Source: Falsiroseomonas stagni DSM 19981 (GTDB taxonomy: Bacteria > Pseudomonadota > Alphaproteobacteria > Acetobacterales > Acetobacteraceae). Taken from it: a stretch of DNA of 64,000 nt. Under the pieces are notes generated by a model. That model searched no databases. It was not told the origin of the DNA and saw only the letters and a program-made list of their open reading frames with translations. Below are positions 53,685 through 62,093 of this stretch, one piece after another; the first letter of the stretch is position 1; the number at the start of each line of letters is the position of its first letter. The translations under genes and the position numbers were made by a program. The stretch lies in the NCBI RefSeq assembly GCF_900114315.1, contig NZ_FOSQ01000002.1, positions 496,001 through 560,000 on the forward strand, written 5' to 3'.

Positions 53685-54335
53685 ATGCCCTTCGACAACA
53701 CCTCCCTGATCCCCCTGCTGACCGGGAGTGGGTTCACGCTCTGGCTCTACCGGACGAGCGATACGCGGGCCACGGCGCTGGGCGCCAACTACTTCTCCCC
53801 GGCCGCCAGTCGCATCACCACCGGTGACCTGATCCTGCTCCAGTCGTCCGATTCGGTCGGCTTGCTGCCGGTCCGCTCCAGCAGCGTGGTCGCGGCTGGC
53901 GTGGTGCTGGATACCGCGGCAGCGCCCTTCCGGGTGAACAGGACGGCGGCGCAGCGCTTCTCCGTCCGGCAGGCCGCCACGGCCGTGGCGATGACCGCCG
54001 TGCTGGCACCGCTGGCAGCTGGCATCGTGTCCAACGGCACCATCGATGCGCAGGCGGCGATCGTGGGGCCGGTGCCCGAAGTCGCCTTCAGCATCAGTGA
54101 CGCATCGGGTGCCACAGTGCGCGGTCCCCAGACCGCGACCGTGTCCGCCGGCACCGCCACGGCCACCTTGCCGGCACCGCCGGCTGGCTCAGGCTACCGC
54201 ATGCGGGTCCAGGCGACGATCGACCCCGCCGTTGCCGACAGTTCGGCACCCTTCGCCGTGACCGCGCCCTACGGGCTTCTGCTGCAAAGCGGCGTGTCGC
54301 TGCTGCTGGAGGATGGCGGACGGGTCCTGATCTGA
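53685..54335 (+). CDS. Phage-tail-style protein of unknown function
   Basis: A 216-residue protein that I do not recognise as a named family. It begins PFDNTSLIPLLTGSGFTLWLYRTSDTRATALGANYFSPAASRITTGDLILLQ, a compact beta-rich head. A 60-residue Ala/Val linker follows, then a second beta region (VAFSISDASGATVRGPQTATVSAGTATATL) like an immunoglobulin-type fold. It ends LLLEDGGRVLI. The Ala/Thr/Gly-rich, Cys-free composition resembles virion fibre-base proteins. It is the first of four same-strand genes and carries a GGAGACGACG ribosome site. Confidence 0.6.
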   Translation: MPFDNTSLIPLLTGSGFTLWLYRTSDTRATALGANYFSPAASRITTGDLILLQSSDSVGLLPVRSSSVVAAGVVLDTAAAPFRVNRTAAQRFSVRQAATAVAMTAVLAPLAAGIVSNGTIDAQAAIVGPVPEVAFSISDASGATVRGPQTATVSAGTATATLPAPPAGSGYRMRVQATIDPAVADSSAPFAVTAPYGLLLQSGVSLLLEDGGRVLI

Positions 54336-54383
54336 CCGCCGCACGAACCCCTCCCCCGCCCCAGACCAGGACAGGAACCCCCG

Positions 54384-56738
54384 ATGGCTGACGCCAGGAT
54401 TTCAGAATTGCCGGTCGCTTCCGCGCTGGCCGCTGCTGACATCGCGCCTTTCGTGCAGGGCAGCGGCACTGCGGCCCAGACGCGGCGCGCGACCTTCGCG
54501 CAGATCACCGCCGGCGTGCACGCCGAACGCATGTTCCACGTGCGGGACTACGGCGCCGTCGGCAATGGCACCACCGACGATGCCGCCGCCATCCAGGCGG
54601 CCATCAACGCGGCCTCCGCCGCCGGGGGCGGCACGGTCCGGCTTGGCCCAAGGCGCTATCGCGTCGTCGCATCCGACATCACGGTGCTGGAGAATGTCTG
54701 CCTGGAAGGCCCCACGACCTTCCCCGGTGGCCAGCGCGCCGCGGCCGACTACCGGGGCATTCCCGGCACGCTGGTGATCGATCCAGCGCGGACCGTGCGC
54801 GTGATGCGGGCCGCCACGCTGCGGGCGATGACGCTGTCCCGCGATGGGCTCGGCGCGCCCCCTACCAACCTGCGTGCGGGCGTGACGCTTCGCGCGGCGA
54901 TGGCAGGCACGGCCGTCACGATCGGCGATGGCTCCGGCAGCCAGCACGACGTGCTGGTGGAGGACCTGTTGATCCTGGGCTTCAACCTGGCGATCCGATC
55001 GGACAACAGCCAGCGCCTCAGTGTGCGTCGCGTCCGCGGCGACAACCAGAACGGCATCTACCTGACGCGGACCTACGACGTCACGCGAATCCACGAGGTG
55101 CATTTCTGGCCGTTCCTGACGGGCAACATCTCGAACGTCTCCCTGGCGCAGGCGGGCGTGGCCGGTGTGGCCAACAACGGGTCCGGCCTTGTGCGGATCA
55201 CCTGCACGGGCGCGCATGGGCTCGTCACGGGCGACCTGGTGAACACCTATGGCATCAGTGGCGTACCGGCCAACGGCCTCTACATCGCCACCGTGGTGGA
55301 TGCCACGCGCGTCGACCTCCAGGGCAGCACCTTCTCCGGGACCTGGACCGGCGGCGGCAACGTCGCCATCTGGAACAACCGCCGGACAGGCACGGCCTTC
55401 CGCGTGGAGGACAGCGACGTCGCCGAATTCGTCAGCTGCTTCGCCTATGGCTATCGAACCGGCTTCGACCTCGGCAACGGGGCGCAATCCATCCAGCTCA
55501 GCAATTGCAGCGTCGATGACCTGCTGTCGCTGAAGGATCCGACCACGGTCGGCGCCCTGATCCAGGGGACGGCCTTCCGCACCAAATGGGTCGGCGGCTT
55601 CATCAGCAGCATGTCCACGGCGATTCGGGTGAACTCATCCGCGCCGAACCAGGGCGACAACCAGTTCGTCGGCGTCATGGTCGGCGGCGATGGCGCCGGC
55701 AGGGCGGTCGAGGTCCTCGATGGCGGCCTCACGCTCGTGGCCTGCGATCTTCCTGCCGCACGCGTGTTCCTGGCCTCGACCGGCGACAGTCTTTCCGTCG
55801 TGGCCTCCGACACGCGTTCCGCCACCTTCCAGGGCCAGACGAACGCGGACCTGGCGCGCATCGTGCTCGTCGGCAACCGGCTGCAGGCGCTGGGCTCCTC
55901 CCCCGACCAGGAGCGCGCGCTGCTGCGCCGGCGATCAGCGACGCTGGGTGGCGACCTGGATATCGAGAACCAGGACGGTAACGTCACCTATTCGCTCAGC
56001 ATCGGCGCCGGTGCGCTTGCGCCTCTCGAGATCGCAGGGGACAGCACGAACAATCCGAATGGCGGCGTGGTGTTCGGCCCCGATGCGGGCATGACGGCGC
56101 CGATGACCGTGACGCTCCGGCGGCGTTCCACGGCGCCGGCGGCGAATGATGCGATCGGCCGCCTGGCCTTCAATGGCAACAACACGACGGGCACGGAGAC
56201 ATCCTTCGCCCGTGCGGGTGGCGTGAGCGAAGCGGTGATGGCGGGCGCAGAGGCGGGCGCCTTCGTCGTGGAGACGCGCAACGGCGCCACGCTGGCGGAG
56301 CGCTTTCGCATCGGACCGACCGGTACCGTGACGCTGACCGGCCCCCTGGTGCTGCCGGCCGACCCGACGACGTCAAGCCAGGCGGCCAGCAAGGGCTATG
56401 TGGACGCCCAGTTCACCAGCCGGCGGCTGCCGGTCGTTGGCACCTCGGCCGCGACGCCACTGACTCTGGCGGCCCACCACGCGCGGGTCGTCTCCGCCAA
56501 TGCGGGCACGACCCTTTCCATCGACTGGACGGCGACCGGCGACGGCTTCACCTGCCTGGTCGTCAATCGCACGGGCGCAGACCTCGCGGTGACGATGACG
56601 GGCTTCACGGGCACCACGCCCACCAACCCCGATGGCCTGACCCGGATCAGGCCGGACGGGCTGGCAACGCTGCTGGCCTTCAGCCCGGACGGCGGCACCA
56701 CCCGGCTGCTCCTGCTGTCCGGCGCCGCCGCGCCATGA
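54384..56738 (+). CDS. Pectate-lyase-fold tail-spike-like protein
   Basis: A 784-residue protein. Residues 1-50 (ARISELPVASALAAADIAPFVQGSGTAAQTRRATFAQI) match the short N-terminal anchor seen in phage tail fibres. From ~50, FHVRDYGAVGNGTTDDAAAIQAAINAASAAGGGTVRLG is the start of the Pectate_lyase_3 right-handed beta-helix used by phage tail-spike depolymerases. The helix continues to ~residue 520. The C-terminal third has NPNGGVVFGPDAGM, TLRRRSTAPAANDAIGRLAFNGNN, DPTTSSQAASKGYVD and a jelly-roll-like end, all typical of fibre C-termini. It probably binds or cleaves a surface polysaccharide. Confidence 0.78.
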   Translation: MADARISELPVASALAAADIAPFVQGSGTAAQTRRATFAQITAGVHAERMFHVRDYGAVGNGTTDDAAAIQAAINAASAAGGGTVRLGPRRYRVVASDITVLENVCLEGPTTFPGGQRAAADYRGIPGTLVIDPARTVRVMRAATLRAMTLSRDGLGAPPTNLRAGVTLRAAMAGTAVTIGDGSGSQHDVLVEDLLILGFNLAIRSDNSQRLSVRRVRGDNQNGIYLTRTYDVTRIHEVHFWPFLTGNISNVSLAQAGVAGVANNGSGLVRITCTGAHGLVTGDLVNTYGISGVPANGLYIATVVDATRVDLQGSTFSGTWTGGGNVAIWNNRRTGTAFRVEDSDVAEFVSCFAYGYRTGFDLGNGAQSIQLSNCSVDDLLSLKDPTTVGALIQGTAFRTKWVGGFISSMSTAIRVNSSAPNQGDNQFVGVMVGGDGAGRAVEVLDGGLTLVACDLPAARVFLASTGDSLSVVASDTRSATFQGQTNADLARIVLVGNRLQALGSSPDQERALLRRRSATLGGDLDIENQDGNVTYSLSIGAGALAPLEIAGDSTNNPNGGVVFGPDAGMTAPMTVTLRRRSTAPAANDAIGRLAFNGNNTTGTETSFARAGGVSEAVMAGAEAGAFVVETRNGATLAERFRIGPTGTVTLTGPLVLPADPTTSSQAASKGYVDAQFTSRRLPVVGTSAATPLTLAAHHARVVSANAGTTLSIDWTATGDGFTCLVVNRTGADLAVTMTGFTGTTPTNPDGLTRIRPDGLATLLAFSPDGGTTRLLLLSGAAAP

Positions 56739-56778
56739 GGCTGCCCCGCATCACCCAGCACAGAGCAAGGAGCACCCG

Positions 56779-57048
56779 ATGAACGAGTGGACCATGACAT
56801 ACTGGCAGGGTCCGCCTGAGGCCGCCGCCGACGGCCTGCGTCTGTTCGGCTGGACGGGTCCGGGCGAAAGCCCGACCGACGCGCTGGACCCGCGCGTCGG
56901 TGGCTTCATCCCGCCGAGCGGCGAACCCATCGTAACCGTGGACGGCGTCGCCTTCGTAGCCCTTGTCACGATGGGGCCGATCGAACCCCCGCCCGGCCTG
57001 ACGGCCACGGACCCGGAACTGTCCCGCAGCATCATCGGCAGTTTCTGA
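56779..57048 (+). CDS. Small protein of the tail-like cluster
   Basis: An 89-residue protein with no recognised family. It reads WTMTYWQGPPEAAADGLRLFGWTGPGESPTDALDPRVGG and ends in a polar DPELSRSIIGSF. A strong ribosome site (AAGGAG) lies 9 bases before the ATG. It starts 40 bases after the spike gene and is followed 28 bases later by the fourth member, so it is likely a structural or chaperone partner of the spike. Confidence 0.55.
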   Translation: MNEWTMTYWQGPPEAAADGLRLFGWTGPGESPTDALDPRVGGFIPPSGEPIVTVDGVAFVALVTMGPIEPPPGLTATDPELSRSIIGSF

Positions 57049-57076
57049 CACCGCACCCCATCACGAGGAGATCGGC

Positions 57077-57451
57077 ATGACCGACCTTACCGACCACGCG
57101 AAGAACCTGCTCGCCCGCGCCCTCTGCGGCCGCCTGCCCACGCTGCCAACCGCGGCCTGGGCCGCCATCGGCACCGGTGGTTCGGATCCCGCCGGCATCA
57201 CCGGCGAACCCGCCGGCACCGGCTATGCCCGCCAGCGGGTGACCTTCACCGGCACCGGGCAGCAGCGGAACGTGGAGGCGATCCGCTTCACCTTCACCGC
57301 CGCGGCCGGGACGATGAGCCATATCGGCCTGTTCGACGCCGCGACCGGCGGCAATCCGCTCACCTGGTCGGCGCTCGCATCCCCGGTCACCGTGGCCGGC
57401 CCCGGCACGGTGACGATCGCCGTCGACGCCCTGACCGTGACACCGGAGTAA
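57077..57451 (+). CDS. Phage tail-fibre-like small protein
   Basis: A 124-residue protein. TDHAKNLLARALCGRLPTLPTAAWAAIGTGGSDPAG and EPAGTGYARQRVTFTGTGQQRNVEAIRFTFTAAAGTMSHIGLFDAATGGNPL correspond to the widespread phage tail-fibre protein in which a GxGYAR segment precedes the H-I-G-L/I-F/Y-D-A run. It would be a virion or tail-associated structural protein. A GAGGAG ribosome site precedes the ATG. It ends the four-gene cluster, 92 bases before the FNR-type start. Confidence 0.68.
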   Translation: MTDLTDHAKNLLARALCGRLPTLPTAAWAAIGTGGSDPAGITGEPAGTGYARQRVTFTGTGQQRNVEAIRFTFTAAAGTMSHIGLFDAATGGNPLTWSALASPVTVAGPGTVTIAVDALTVTPE

Positions 57452-58333: not shown

Positions 58334-58408
<75 letters not shown>

Positions 58409-58502: not shown

Positions 58503-59513
58503 TCAGGCCAGCAGCGATCCGTTCTCTGCCAGCCATTGCCGTTCCTCGGGCCGGAGGGCGGGCACCTTGTACCGCCGACGCAGTTCGGCGACGGGCTGGT
58601 CCACCGCGGACCAGAGGTCCCATTCGGCCAGGATATCGACCTCGGTCGCCGCACCCCGCGCCACCGCGCGGAAGAAGGCATCGGGCCGGAGTTCATCCTG
58701 GAGAACCGGCCCGGGCATGACCTGGAACCCGGCCTGGAATTGGAGCAGGGAGAGCAGCAGCAGGTCCATGCACAGGACCTCGGTATTGCCGCCGCTGAAG
58801 GCGGCGTTGAGCATCTCGCCCTGCAGCGACGTCTCATATTCGCTGATGATGTGGTAGACCTCGTGCTTGGACCAGCCCTCCGGGAAGCTCTTGGGCTCGC
58901 CCGGCATCGGAAAGCCGCGGTCGCGATAGAAGCGGAACAGCCCATGGCCCAGGGTGCCTTCGGGCCGGTGTTCCAGGCCGCGATACCGCTCCAGCAGGCC
59001 TCGATCGACGAGCATGGCGTAGACGCCCGGGATGGCCGGCATGGCGATCCGGATCATGTCGAGCCAATCCCGCAAGCGGGCGCGGCCGGTCGGCGACCAG
59101 TAATGGGCGACCGACCGCATCATCAGCCGGAAGGCCAGCTTGCGGAACTTCCGCTCCTGCGCCAGGCGCAGAAGGCCAACGCCATATTCATCCACGCCCA
59201 GTTGCGCCGCCACGGCTTCCACAAGCCGGACCTTCGCATCCAGCACCTGCTTATCGAGCACCGGCACCATGGCCAGGATGCGCACGGTTTCGCGCCGCAT
59301 CAGGGGTGAGTCGATCGTCGCGGCGAGGTCGGCCGGAACGGAGAGCGCCGGCGGTTCAAGCGGCTCATCCAGATGCAGCAGATGCCGCTGGATGGCCAGG
59401 ATGCTGTCGTGCTCGACAGGCAGCAAGGGCAGCGCGCCTTCCGCGGTGGCGACCGCATGCATGGTCTGCACGATGGACAGCGCCTGCTTCGTGGTTGGCG
59501 TAATCACCTGCAT
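58503..59513 (-). CDS. TerB-like/Coq4-like fusion protein (paralogue C)
   Basis: A 336-residue soluble protein, one of three paralogues in this operon. Residues ~10-130 are helical and TerB-like (TMHAVATAEGALPLLPVEHDSILAIQRHLL, then EAVAAQLGVDEYGVGLLRLA), with a weak acidic motif. From ~175 the sequence follows the Coq4 family: RPEGTLGHGLFRFYRDRGF, then H217-E-V-Y-H221-IIS followed 11 residues later by E233, the zinc-type H-x3-H-x11-E motif of COQ4. Its N-terminal ~175 residues are unlike Coq4, and the C-terminus (AELRRRYKVPALRPEER) is shared with the paralogues. It is the last gene of the unit, 52 bases after paralogue B, with a GGAG ribosome site. A quinone-pathway role is possible but unproven. 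Confidence 0.7.
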   Translation of the reverse strand: MQVITPTTKQALSIVQTMHAVATAEGALPLLPVEHDSILAIQRHLLHLDEPLEPPALSVPADLAATIDSPLMRRETVRILAMVPVLDKQVLDAKVRLVEAVAAQLGVDEYGVGLLRLAQERKFRKLAFRLMMRSVAHYWSPTGRARLRDWLDMIRIAMPAIPGVYAMLVDRGLLERYRGLEHRPEGTLGHGLFRFYRDRGFPMPGEPKSFPEGWSKHEVYHIISEYETSLQGEMLNAAFSGGNTEVLCMDLLLLSLLQFQAGFQVMPGPVLQDELRPDAFFRAVARGAATEVDILAEWDLWSAVDQPVAELRRRYKVPALRPEERQWLAENGSLLA

Positions 59514-59565
59514 GATGGGTCTCCGAACCGCTCCTCGCTCTCCGCCCCGGCCTCGTCGCTGATCG

Positions 59566-60579
59566 TCAGGCCGGCAGAAGGGCCTTGTGGGGCGCCAACT
59601 CTTCCCGTTCCGCTGCGGTCAGCGCCGGTATGCCGTAGCGGCGCCGCACATCCTCGAGCGGCAGGTCGGCGACATCCCACAGCCGCCATCCCGCCAGAAG
59701 ATCCACCTGCATCGCGGCACCACGCGCCATGGCACGGAAGAAGGGGTCAGGCTGCAGCTTCCCCTTGGACACGGGTCCTGGCACGAATTTCAGGCCGACA
59801 TGAAGCTGGATCAGCGCCGGCAGGACGATGTCCAGGCAAAGCTCCTCCGTGTTGCCGGCAATGAAGCCGGCCAGCAGCAATTCGCCCTGCAGGTTCGTCG
59901 CATAGCCGCTGAGCACGTGGTAGATTTCATGGCGCGCCCACCCCTCCGGCAGGCTCTTCGGCTCGCCGGGCATGGGAAAACCGTGATGCGTGTAGTACCC
60001 ATGCACCATGCGTCCGAAGCTCCCCGTCGGGAGGGCGCCGAGCGCCTGGTAGCGCCTCAGCAACTCATCGCGGCCGAGGTAGCGGCCGAGGCCCGGCAGC
60101 CATGGCGCGGCCGTCCAGACCATGCCGAGCCAGTCACGCAGCGTGGCGCGGCCGTCGAAAGACCAGTAATGCGCCACGATGCGGCGCATGAAGCCGAAGA
60201 CGTGGCCGCGCCCCTTCCGCTCCGCGAGTTGCAACAGCACCGTCAATCCGAATTCGGCAACGCCGAGACGGCGTGCAGCCTCCGCCACCACCGCGACCTT
60301 CTCCTGCCGCAGCGTGCCATCGACCAGTGACAGGATCGCCAACTGGCGAACCAGCTGCCGCCGGGAGGCGGGATCGGCGATGACGCTGCCCAATGCCGGC
60401 GGCAGAGAACCCGGCACGCCCCGCATGGGCGTCTCCTGCCCCAGCATGTGCCGCTGGAAGGCATCGATGGCCTCGACCTCGATCGCTTCCGGGACAAGGG
60501 CTCCATCGGCCGAGGCCACCGCATAGGCCGCGGCCACGATGCAGGCCAGTTCCTCGGGACCCGGCACGACCGGCTTCAT
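59566..60579 (-). CDS. TerB-like/Coq4-like fusion protein (paralogue B)
   Basis: A 337-residue paralogue. The N-terminal half is the clearest TerB-like region of the three: AAAYAVASADGALVPEAIEVEAIDAF and LSLVDGTLRQEKVAVVAEAARRLGV, each with the A/VDG turn that in TerB begins an acidic metal-binding helix. The Coq4-like half has GALPTGSFGRMVHGYYTHHGF, PMPGEPKSLPEGW and H217-E-I-Y-H221 with E233 (HVLSGYATNLQGE), identical in number to paralogue C. Its ATG overlaps the stop of the NHLP-like gene by 4 bases, so the two are translationally coupled. No signal peptide or membrane segment is visible. Confidence 0.72.
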   Translation of the reverse strand: MKPVVPGPEELACIVAAAYAVASADGALVPEAIEVEAIDAFQRHMLGQETPMRGVPGSLPPALGSVIADPASRRQLVRQLAILSLVDGTLRQEKVAVVAEAARRLGVAEFGLTVLLQLAERKGRGHVFGFMRRIVAHYWSFDGRATLRDWLGMVWTAAPWLPGLGRYLGRDELLRRYQALGALPTGSFGRMVHGYYTHHGFPMPGEPKSLPEGWARHEIYHVLSGYATNLQGELLLAGFIAGNTEELCLDIVLPALIQLHVGLKFVPGPVSKGKLQPDPFFRAMARGAAMQVDLLAGWRLWDVADLPLEDVRRRYGIPALTAAEREELAPHKALLPA

Positions 60580-60986
60580 GCCACGGCATCCTCGGCCTCG
60601 ACGCGGCCTTGCGCCGCAAGCCCGCGCAGCGCGCCTGCGGCATCCAGCAGCACGCGGCGACCCAGGGACGGATCATCCACGGCACGCGTGAGGATCATCC
60701 CGTAGGCGGCCTGCTGCGCACAGGGCGACCGCGGCGATGGAATGAAGAAGTAGGCGTAGCCTCCGCCCTGTTCCAGCACCACCTGGATCAATGACGGGTC
60801 GTCCACGTCTCCAGGCGCACCCTTGCTGCCGACCACGCGGACTGTCGCGCCCGCAGGGATGTCGATACCGATATCGGGCAACGCCCTGCCCGGTGCCTCG
60901 ACAAGCCGCTTGCGAAAAGCTGCATCGGTCCAGATCCGGGCGATTGCCGCGGCCGAGGCTTCATCCATCATGGCTGGCGTCTCCAC
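60576..60986 (-). CDS. NHLP/nitrile-hydratase-leader-like small protein
   Basis: A protein of 136 residues from GTG 60986, or 131 from ATG 60971 (GGAG 9 bases upstream favours the latter). Residues ~11-52, AAAIARIWTDAAFRKRLVEAPGRALPDIGIDIPAGATVRVV, match the NHLP leader fold of some RiPP precursors, which derives from the nitrile hydratase alpha subunit (pattern W-x-D-x-x-F-x-x-x-L-x-x-x-P-x-x-A-L-x-x-x-G). The cysteine motif of true nitrile hydratase is absent. GGGYAYFFIPSPRSPCAQQ forms a middle segment with one Cys, and RAVDDPSLGRRVLLDAAGAL near the end looks like a decayed second copy of the leader helix. It is coupled to paralogue B. It could be a precursor peptide, a scaffold or a regulatory partner. 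Confidence 0.6.
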   Translation of the reverse strand: METPAMMDEASAAAIARIWTDAAFRKRLVEAPGRALPDIGIDIPAGATVRVVGSKGAPGDVDDPSLIQVVLEQGGGYAYFFIPSPRSPCAQQAAYGMILTRAVDDPSLGRRVLLDAAGALRGLAAQGRVEAEDAVA

Positions 60987-61022
60987 CGCAATCGCCCTCG
61001 CGCGCTCTCCGCATCATCGACG

Positions 61023-62093
61023 TCAGGCCATGGCTGCCGCGGGACGGCCCTGGCCGATGCCGGGCCAATCCGCCGGTGTCGAATGTCCAGGCCCGGTCAG
61101 CAGGCCGTTATAGCCGCCGACCAGGGCGCGCTCCTGCTCCGCCAGCGGCGGAATGCCGTACTGGGCGCGAAGCTGCTCCAGGTCGGTCTCCGCCACCGCC
61201 CAGAGATCCCAGCCCCGCACGACGCTGACCGTCATCGCGGCGCCGCGTGCCATCGCCGCGAAATAGCTCTCCGGGTCCAGCAAGCCCTCCGCCACCACGC
61301 CACCGATCAGCGGGCTGCCGGTCTGGTAGGACAGCAGGCCAAACAGGATCTGGTCCATGCAGTTCTCGCCGAGCGACCCGCCCACGAAGGCCGTCAGCAG
61401 CATCTCCGCCTCGAGCTTCACGCCGTATTCGCTCAGCACGTGATAGACCTCGTGCATCACCCAGGGGACGCTCTTGGGTTCGCCCGGCAGGCCGATGTCG
61501 TTGTCGGCGTAGAAGGCATGCAGCGCGCGGCCGAAGGTGCCTTCGGGCAGCTGGCCCAGGGCGGCGTAGCGGGCGGCCAGTTCGGCGTGCCGGCGCGCGG
61601 TCCCCTTGCCGTGCAACTGCGGCAGCATCCACCAGATGAAGCGCATCCAGTCACCGATGCCCGCCTTCCCCGATGGCGACCACCAATCGACGAAGCCCTT
61701 CATCAACGACATCGCGATGCGCTTGAACTGCCCCCGCGCAGCCCGCTGGAGCAGCGCCACGCCACGCTCCTCGATGCCGAGGCGACGCGCCGCTTCCACA
61801 ACCACGGCGACCTTCTCGTCGCTGATCCGCCGGCCGACCAGGGACAGGATGACGAGAAGCTGGACCGTCAGGCGCCGCAGATCCGGATCGACAATGGTCG
61901 CAGCCAGGTCGTCCGGCAGCGGGCCTGCCTCGGCGCGGGTGGGCGCCGCCTGTCCCAGCAGATGGCGCTGGATCGCCTCGATGCTGGCCTGCTCCACCGG
62001 CAAGGGCGGAACCCGTCCCTCGGCTGAAACAACGGCCGACATGGCCTTGACCATCGTGGAAAGCTGCGCCGGCGTCGGATGGATCAGCTTCAT
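61023..62093 (-). CDS. TerB-like/Coq4-like fusion protein (paralogue A)
   Basis: A 356-residue paralogue and first gene of the leftward operon. It starts MKLIHPTPAQLSTMVKAMSAVVSAEGRVPPLPVEQASIEAIQRHLLG and continues LVGRRISDEKVAVVVEAARRLGIEERG (TerB-like half). The Coq4-like half has ARYAALGQLPEGTFGRALHAFYAD and the motif H214-E-V-Y-H218 ... E230 (HVLSEYGVKLEAE). QYGIPPLAEQERALVGGYNGLL matches the ends of the other two; a 15-residue tail is extra. GGGTGAGG precedes the ATG. A 36-base gap separates it from the NHLP-like gene. The 111 bases upstream separate it from the RND gene and may hold its promoter (TTCGCA-17-GTCATA, weak). Confidence 0.7.
   Translation of the reverse strand: MKLIHPTPAQLSTMVKAMSAVVSAEGRVPPLPVEQASIEAIQRHLLGQAAPTRAEAGPLPDDLAATIVDPDLRRLTVQLLVILSLVGRRISDEKVAVVVEAARRLGIEERGVALLQRAARGQFKRIAMSLMKGFVDWWSPSGKAGIGDWMRFIWWMLPQLHGKGTARRHAELAARYAALGQLPEGTFGRALHAFYADNDIGLPGEPKSVPWVMHEVYHVLSEYGVKLEAEMLLTAFVGGSLGENCMDQILFGLLSYQTGSPLIGGVVAEGLLDPESYFAAMARGAAMTVSVVRGWDLWAVAETDLEQLRAQYGIPPLAEQERALVGGYNGLLTGPGHSTPADWPGIGQGRPAAAMA

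Follow-up and report, generated by a model that had tools for sequence, protein, structure and literature searches.

A cassette of four adjacent genes, termed here A, N, B and C, lies within a 64,000-nt stretch of the Falsiroseomonas stagni DSM 19981 genome (contig NZ_FOSQ01000002.1, positions 496,001 to 560,000; this whole stretch is the window, and the genome is the own genome, G000). In the genomes searched, the cassette is seen only together with the marker of a hybrid polyketide synthase-nonribosomal peptide synthetase (PKS-NRPS) pathway, whether adjacent to it or not, and usually lies beside a resistance-nodulation-division (RND) efflux pump. A, B and C encode paralogues that join a TerB domain to a Coq4 domain and that retain the Coq4-type metal motif, altered to HExYH-x11-E; N encodes a protein apparently related to the nitrile hydratase leader peptides (NHLPs) and predicted to be folded throughout. 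The link between the cassette and the PKS-NRPS pathway is very likely real; that A-N-B-C constitutes an accessory module of one such pathway is the best explanation overall, at roughly even chances.

Recurrence of the cassette and its association with a PKS-NRPS pathway

The first-pass annotation of the window had described a four-gene operon in which N is translationally coupled to B. The four open reading frames (ORFs) are at the coordinates given, on the minus strand, and the N stop overlaps the B start by 4 nt:

61023..62093 (-): gene A, TerB-Coq4 paralogue, 356 aa, HEVYH-x11-E (H214/H218/E230)
60576..60986 (-): gene N, 136 aa, NHLP/nitrile hydratase (NHase) alpha-like N-terminal ~45 residues then a conserved C-terminal alpha/beta region that contains AQQAAYG
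59566..60579 (-): gene B, TerB-Coq4 paralogue, 337 aa, HEIYH-x11-E (H217/H221/E233)
58503..59513 (-): gene C, TerB-Coq4 paralogue, 336 aa, HEVYH-x11-E (H217/H221/E233)

A scan of genome contigs yielded eight further loci (labelled L, and their genomes G), all eight of which carry A, N, B and C; contig ends cut A of L014 and C of L010, the remainder of the latter being on another contig (L079). Given this recurrence, the four-gene grouping is not due to chance, and the expected pairing of the N gene with TerB-Coq4 genes is indeed conserved. The hosts are Roseomonas/Falsiroseomonas, metagenome-assembled genomes (MAGs) of Acetobacteraceae and of Rhodospirillales, Thalassobaculum and one Rhodanobacteraceae MAG.

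The pathway marker, protein P0008, occurs in 9/9 cassette genomes, as do PF00668 condensation domains (in two places in seven genomes, in one in G1176 and in ten in G1178). An FkbH gene adjoins P0008 in all seven genomes whose neighbouring stretch was read (the own genome and G1174-G1179; G1172 and G1173 are not among these). Within a sample of 395 genomes from the order, full-length N occurs in G000 and G338, and P0008 in the same two only (Fisher p 1.3e-5, or 0.0025 minus the own genome); G338 is probably the same genome as G1176 (L012), with which it shares P0008 coordinates. G141, also in this sample, matches the NHLP part of N only, and the 11 own-genus genomes in both order-sample searches have neither N nor P0008. 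In the phylum samples, full-length N was found only in the own genome (398 genomes), and P0008 likewise (195 genomes), where, as in the order sample, the limits of a first-look search mean that absences are not proof.

Cassette and marker are adjacent or near each other on one contig in G000, G1172, G1173 and G1178 (L014); in G1177 the cassette shares its contig with the cluster's pump, kinase and thioesterase (L070), and the marker and condensation domains are on other contigs. In G1174, G1175, G1176 and G1179 cassette and P0008 are on different contigs. The contigs of G1174 are short, so that the separation there is uninformative; the MAG G1175 and the isolate G1179 have long contigs for both (140-656 kb), at least one of which holds its genes far from either end, and there the two loci seem genuinely separate.

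Evolutionary history and selection

The 25 full-length cassette proteins (A from eight loci, B from nine and C from eight) were placed in a tree together with every other TerB-Coq4 relative found, 13 in all. Each paralogue falls on one side of a branch, with values of 100/100 for A, 100/99 for B and 94/88 (not starred) for C, and the 13 non-cassette relatives fall outside the cassette clade (L014_B has a long branch, and the tool warned of long branches near the root). The separate branches indicate an old triplication, earlier than the divergence of the carriers found here; the three copies are unlikely to be interchangeable. All four genes are under purifying selection: comparison of the window with L008, L009, L013 and L015 gives nonsynonymous-to-synonymous rate ratios (dN/dS) of 0.09-0.34 for A, B and C and of 0.15-0.28 for N.

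Thalassobaculum is placed beside Roseomonas in the tree, and the Rhodanobacteraceae MAG inside the alphaproteobacteria, which suggests horizontal transfer. Moreover, in five loci C ends 82-109 nt from a tRNA gene, namely tRNA-Thr(GGT) in four and tRNA-Arg(CCT) in Thalassobaculum (L008:8157-8231, L009:8173-8247, L013:8139-8213 and L015:8066-8142 (+), together with the following gene of the window):

58334..58408 (-): tRNA-Thr(GGT), 94 nt past C; marks the cassette edge, with no part in its function

The tRNA site is a possible island edge, and in L009 an integrase-like ORF (recognized by eye) lies past the tRNA. Since islands may thus be involved, the four genes might merely travel on the same island as the pathway and do no work in it. 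Both the tRNA sites and the tree placement would fit such a history, yet the co-occurrence persists when cassette and pathway are on different contigs, as well as across families, and hitchhiking of this sort is accordingly very improbable.

The neighbouring cluster and efflux pump

Two pump genes lie next to A in the own genome:

62205..64000 (-): RND (AcrB-type) efflux pump, 5' part lying outside the window (full length 1023 aa, G000:C30:558205-561276)
C30:561276-562376: membrane-fusion protein (MFP) gene, outside the window, next after RND

The RND protein is 93% identical to its L013 counterpart, which matches Pfam ACR_tran with 879.6 bits. The cassette, RND and MFP are on the same strand, and the intervals are short (RND-A 111 nt, A-N 36 nt, N-B -4 nt, B-C 52 nt), which makes it plausible that MFP-RND-A-N-B-C is transcribed as one unit.

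Beyond the MFP gene come a UbiB-like ABC1 kinase, a DUF6200 protein and a type II thioesterase. PKS ORFs with KS, AT, DH, MT, ER, KR and ACP domains begin at ~C30:565 kb, and the NRPS part has TubC_N, C, A and PCP domains and a nitroreductase match. Next are a methyltransferase, an MBOAT protein, a B12-binding radical SAM protein (L041:6450-8072 (-); best model the PhpK P-methyltransferase family, 367.8 bits, cut-off 600), FkbH (TIGR01686, 269 bits, cut-off 146.65), P0008, and a final multidomain ORF at ~625-635 kb with KS, a C domain, an A motif and a TE motif. Pfam holds no match at E<=0.001 for P0008 or its relative P0007, nor does NCBIfam for P0008 at 0.01; by its motifs, P0008 is presumably akin to stand-alone condensation/PapA-type acyltransferases. 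The kinase between pump and PKS (L038:4472-6430 (-), that is, C30:562471-564429), also found in G1172 and G1177, scores 232.7 bits against UbiB, under the equivalog cut-off of 487.55; it is a second quinone-pathway-like protein next to the Coq4-like ones. On the window itself, an ORF run at 53685-57451 beside the cassette includes a 784-aa ORF with the look of a pectin lyase or tail spike (by eye) and has relatives in L008 and L013.

The cassette is flanked by RND/MFP genes in 7/9 loci. These genes stand either upstream of A (window, L008, L009 and L013) or downstream of a divergent C (L010/L079, L011 and L012), and one arrangement reads C-MFP-RND-TolC-like (TolC by eye). No pump was found inside the 12.9-kb locus of L015, from which a weak MFP match (27%) lies ~8 kb off (L069), and the L014 contig ends upstream within A. 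Because the L011-type pump is only 43% identical to that of the window and RND pumps are common, the link with the pump is weaker than that with P0008. In L014, from the Rhodanobacteraceae MAG, the end of A, followed by N, B and C, leads straight into co-directional genes for FkbH (283 bits, cut-off 146.65), ACP and a homologue of P0008 (L014:2626-5387 (+), directly after C), a compact gammaproteobacterial version on a short contig.

These neighbours raise the question of self-protection, in which the Coq4-fold proteins would bind or inactivate a hydrophobic product (or adjust a quinone pool that the product attacks) and hand it to the RND pump. The pump stays beside the cassette even where the synthase is on another contig, one arrangement reads C-MFP-RND-TolC-like, a UbiB-like kinase accompanies the pump in three genomes, and a Coq4 structure (6e12) has, according to its title, oleic acid and magnesium bound, the former being a lipid ligand in the fold. 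Against these observations stand the L014 cassette, which leads into genes of an acyl-loading type rather than into a pump, the L015 locus without a pump, and the retention of metal motifs in three paralogues, which suggests catalysis. Self-protection is thus rather unlikely.

Family, fold and metal motif of A, B and C

C and A are 46% and 44% identical to B, respectively. Scans of single sequences with hidden Markov models (HMMs) give A 11.8 bits against Coq4 (PF05019; curated cut-off 22.9) and B 15.7 bits against TerB (cut-off 24.4), no Coq4 match for B or C, and no family match at all for C; among the 25 cassette A/B/C proteins, one matches Coq4 and two match TerB at E<=0.01. Despite these weak scores, the TerB-Coq4 architecture read by eye in the first pass is upheld, because a profile search supports the Coq4 family (3msq, E 0.001), because a homologue, P0005, bridges the gap to it (Pfam Coq4, 25 bits, over the cut-off; BLASTP to B, 3e-21), and because the folds agree with those of Coq4 and TerB. 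P0005 (L001:853-1872, own genome, C39) is a single TerB-Coq4 homologue with HDITH, and at least one such non-cassette relative occurs in 7/9 cassette genomes. A normal single-domain coq4 gene, which it had been proposed to look for, was not found in the own genome, where a Pfam Coq4 search at E<=0.001 retrieves P0005 alone, which is likewise of the TerB-Coq4 type; the reach of this search is limited, because A, B and C were also missed by it.

The histidines and glutamates named at the outset as a metal site are all present, and the H-x3-H-x11-E spacing is kept in 25/25 cassette proteins; one correction concerns the D of the COQ4 motif, which is replaced by E throughout. A, B and C therefore have HExYH-x11-E in place of the HDxxH-x11-E found in 13/13 non-cassette relatives and in 3msq, a pattern taken here, after the COQ4 literature, to be the Coq4 metal motif. 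(One of the two scan patterns held HE[VI]YH, so that one gene per locus was partly selected for the motif; the other genes were not.) Similarly, the LP-x-G-x-x-G segment attributed to all three proteins is found in A (LPEGTFG) and B (LPTGSFG), and C departs from it (RPEGTLG).

Homology to Coq4 could mean that A, B and C act on ubiquinone or a related respiratory quinone, particularly as COQ4 has been reported to be an oxidative decarboxylase of prenylated quinone precursors (PMC12938788) and as a UbiB-like kinase is nearby. Against this, the set is rare (full-length N is in 2/395 order genomes and in 1/398 of the phylum sample, the own genome being in both), it tracks a PKS-NRPS pathway, and its motif has shifted from HD to HE. 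A quinone role is extremely improbable, in keeping with the initial view that the cassette does not fit ordinary ubiquinone synthesis.

Protein N

N has 136 residues from a GTG start, and 131 or 130 from two ATGs, close to the 131-136 first given. As a single sequence it falls just short of the NHase_alpha HMM (25.8 bits, cut-off 27.2) and below the cut-off of TIGR03793 (31.2 bits, cut-off 50.9); as a profile searched against the PDB, its residues ~5-49 hit NHase alpha (best E 1.6e-10) as well as an NHLP, 8tb1 (9.6e-7), which supports the NHLP likeness initially proposed. The C-terminal part has no family match, though it is conserved and predicted to be folded. AlphaFold2 models N as one folded unit over nearly its full length (pLDDT 88.0, pTM 0.82), with helices within 9-39, strands at 48-54, 66-73 and 76-83, and helices at 88-95 and 106-135. 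Q91, Q92, Y95 and G96 are invariant in 9/9 sequences, and in the four comparisons used above dN/dS is lower for residues 56-120 (0.07-0.16) than for the leader-like part (0.20-0.52).

NHLP precursors of ribosomally synthesized and post-translationally modified peptides (RiPPs) are described as having a conserved leader, a Gly-Gly site and a variable core (PMC2887384). No Gly-Gly cleavage site is conserved in the nine N sequences, the combination of Gly-Gly and variable core is absent, and the pattern of constraint is the reverse of that described in the same source. N is probably NHLP-related and is predicted to be folded throughout. One ORF of a distant genome (G678; L021:1348-1839 (+)) does have the look of a RiPP precursor, being NHLP-like, 163 aa long, extended at the N terminus by a Lys/Ala-rich stretch and closed by a segment with Cys.

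Might N nevertheless be a precursor whose AQQAAYG is modified by HExxH Coq4-fold enzymes, yielding a ribosomally made unit that is joined to the polyketide or goes along with it? Its N-terminal homology to NHLP precursors, its translational overlap with B and its four invariant residues would suit this, as would the report that HEXXH enzymes hydroxylate consecutive Gln residues of NHLP precursors (PMC12636437); those enzymes, however, are described there as zincin-like, not Coq4-like. The cluster also encodes two proteins of types found in RiPP clusters as well, the B12-radical SAM protein and an ORF with a SagB peptide-dehydrogenase match (34.7 bits, below the cut-off of 78.4), but no YcaO, lanthionine-synthetase or peptidase family scores over its cut-off among the subset of neighbouring ORFs scanned. 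Together with the lack of Gly-Gly and a predicted single unit whose helix 106-135 follows the motif, this makes a RiPP-like route decidedly unlikely. Of the two roles first suggested, peptide maturation is thus unsupported, given also that the C-terminal half of N is more constrained than the leader-like half; the other role, that a small molecule is delivered or modified, agrees with the setting in a PKS-NRPS cluster accompanied by an RND pump.

A proposed role in tailoring

Within the reading of A-N-B-C as an accessory module, tailoring or handling of the product is slightly favoured over resistance. The L014 readthrough into FkbH, ACP and P0008 points to acyl-chain biosynthesis, and the adjacent pump points to export. 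A, B and C may be three non-redundant subunits that form a soluble complex with N. NHLPs have been characterized as docking modules with a defined structure that bind different enzymes through their surfaces (PMC12455567), and N could be an adaptor in which this surface, elsewhere used to dock RiPP enzymes, gathers the Coq4-fold enzymes or brings them onto the synthase. In view of the oxidative decarboxylation reported for COQ4 and of the oleic acid and magnesium of 6e12, a natural guess is that A, B and C carry out a metal-dependent oxidation of a hydrophobic chain: at least one of A, B and C would use bound metal to act on the polyketide chain, perhaps, by analogy with COQ4, removing a carboxyl group with hydroxylation, after which the RND pump would export the product. 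Any such specific oxidative chemistry is doubtful.

Taken further, this scheme would amount to an enzyme class of a new kind, in which A, B and C form a heteromeric metalloenzyme complex of Coq4 fold that is organized by an NHLP-derived protein and tailors an NRPS-PKS product; it is put forward tentatively, as less likely than not. In its boldest form, N would be a protein substrate or carrier whose invariant QQ-x2-YG is modified by the HExYH Coq4-fold enzymes, so that the polyketide incorporates, or is accompanied by, an N-derived ribosomal fragment or a modified side chain, crossing RiPP and PKS logic.

Relation to known systems

COQ4 was long regarded as structural only, an enzymatic role having been assigned lately (PMC12938788). 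If the proposal is true, a triplicated, metal-motif-altered Coq4 fold tied to a natural-product pathway would show further abilities of the fold and make dispensable COQ4 relatives available for study; N, for its part, is an apparent NHLP relative that has seemingly departed from the RiPP role. No published account of the cassette, or of such a role for the Coq4 family, was found in a literature search made mostly without subscription journals. The closest account is of a hybrid NRPS-PKS cluster of Roseomonas algicola PeD5, reported in 2021 to have fourteen modules, including two NRPS modules and PKS modules, and two efflux genes (PMC8776678). L009 is from strain PeD5, and that cluster is very likely the same as the one in G1173. 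The main text of that paper does not contain the words Coq4, TerB, nitrile hydratase, FkbH or tellurite, and the present analysis thus draws attention to a conserved hybrid pathway whose accessory genes are unnamed there.

Coq4 has been seen in or beside PKS genes before, as disorazol orf9, a coq4 reported not to be needed (PMC9712229), and in a Synechococcus singleton cluster with PKS, syncA and Coq4 (PMC10783134); the passages concerned mention neither three copies nor an NHLP partner. Relative to the Coq4/COQ4 family (PF05019; 6e12 Alr8543 and 3msq), the cassette proteins are fused to TerB, occur as three paralogues per locus, have HExYH rather than HDxxH in every member, and go together with a PKS-NRPS pathway and, in most loci, with a pump. 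The other TerB-Coq4 proteins (P0005 and 12 others) share the same two domains at ~25-36% identity, but have HDxxH in all 13 cases and no N homologue in the 3.5-18 kb of surrounding sequence that was read. N resembles NHLP leaders and nitrile hydratase alpha (TIGR03793, PF02979) over residues ~5-49, with scores below the curated cut-offs, and differs in lacking Gly-Gly and in its C-terminal part, which is conserved and predicted to be folded. The cassette is a TerB-Coq4 variant with an apparently NHLP-derived partner, which departs both from the HD of the Coq4 motif and from the Gly-Gly and variable core of NHLP precursors.

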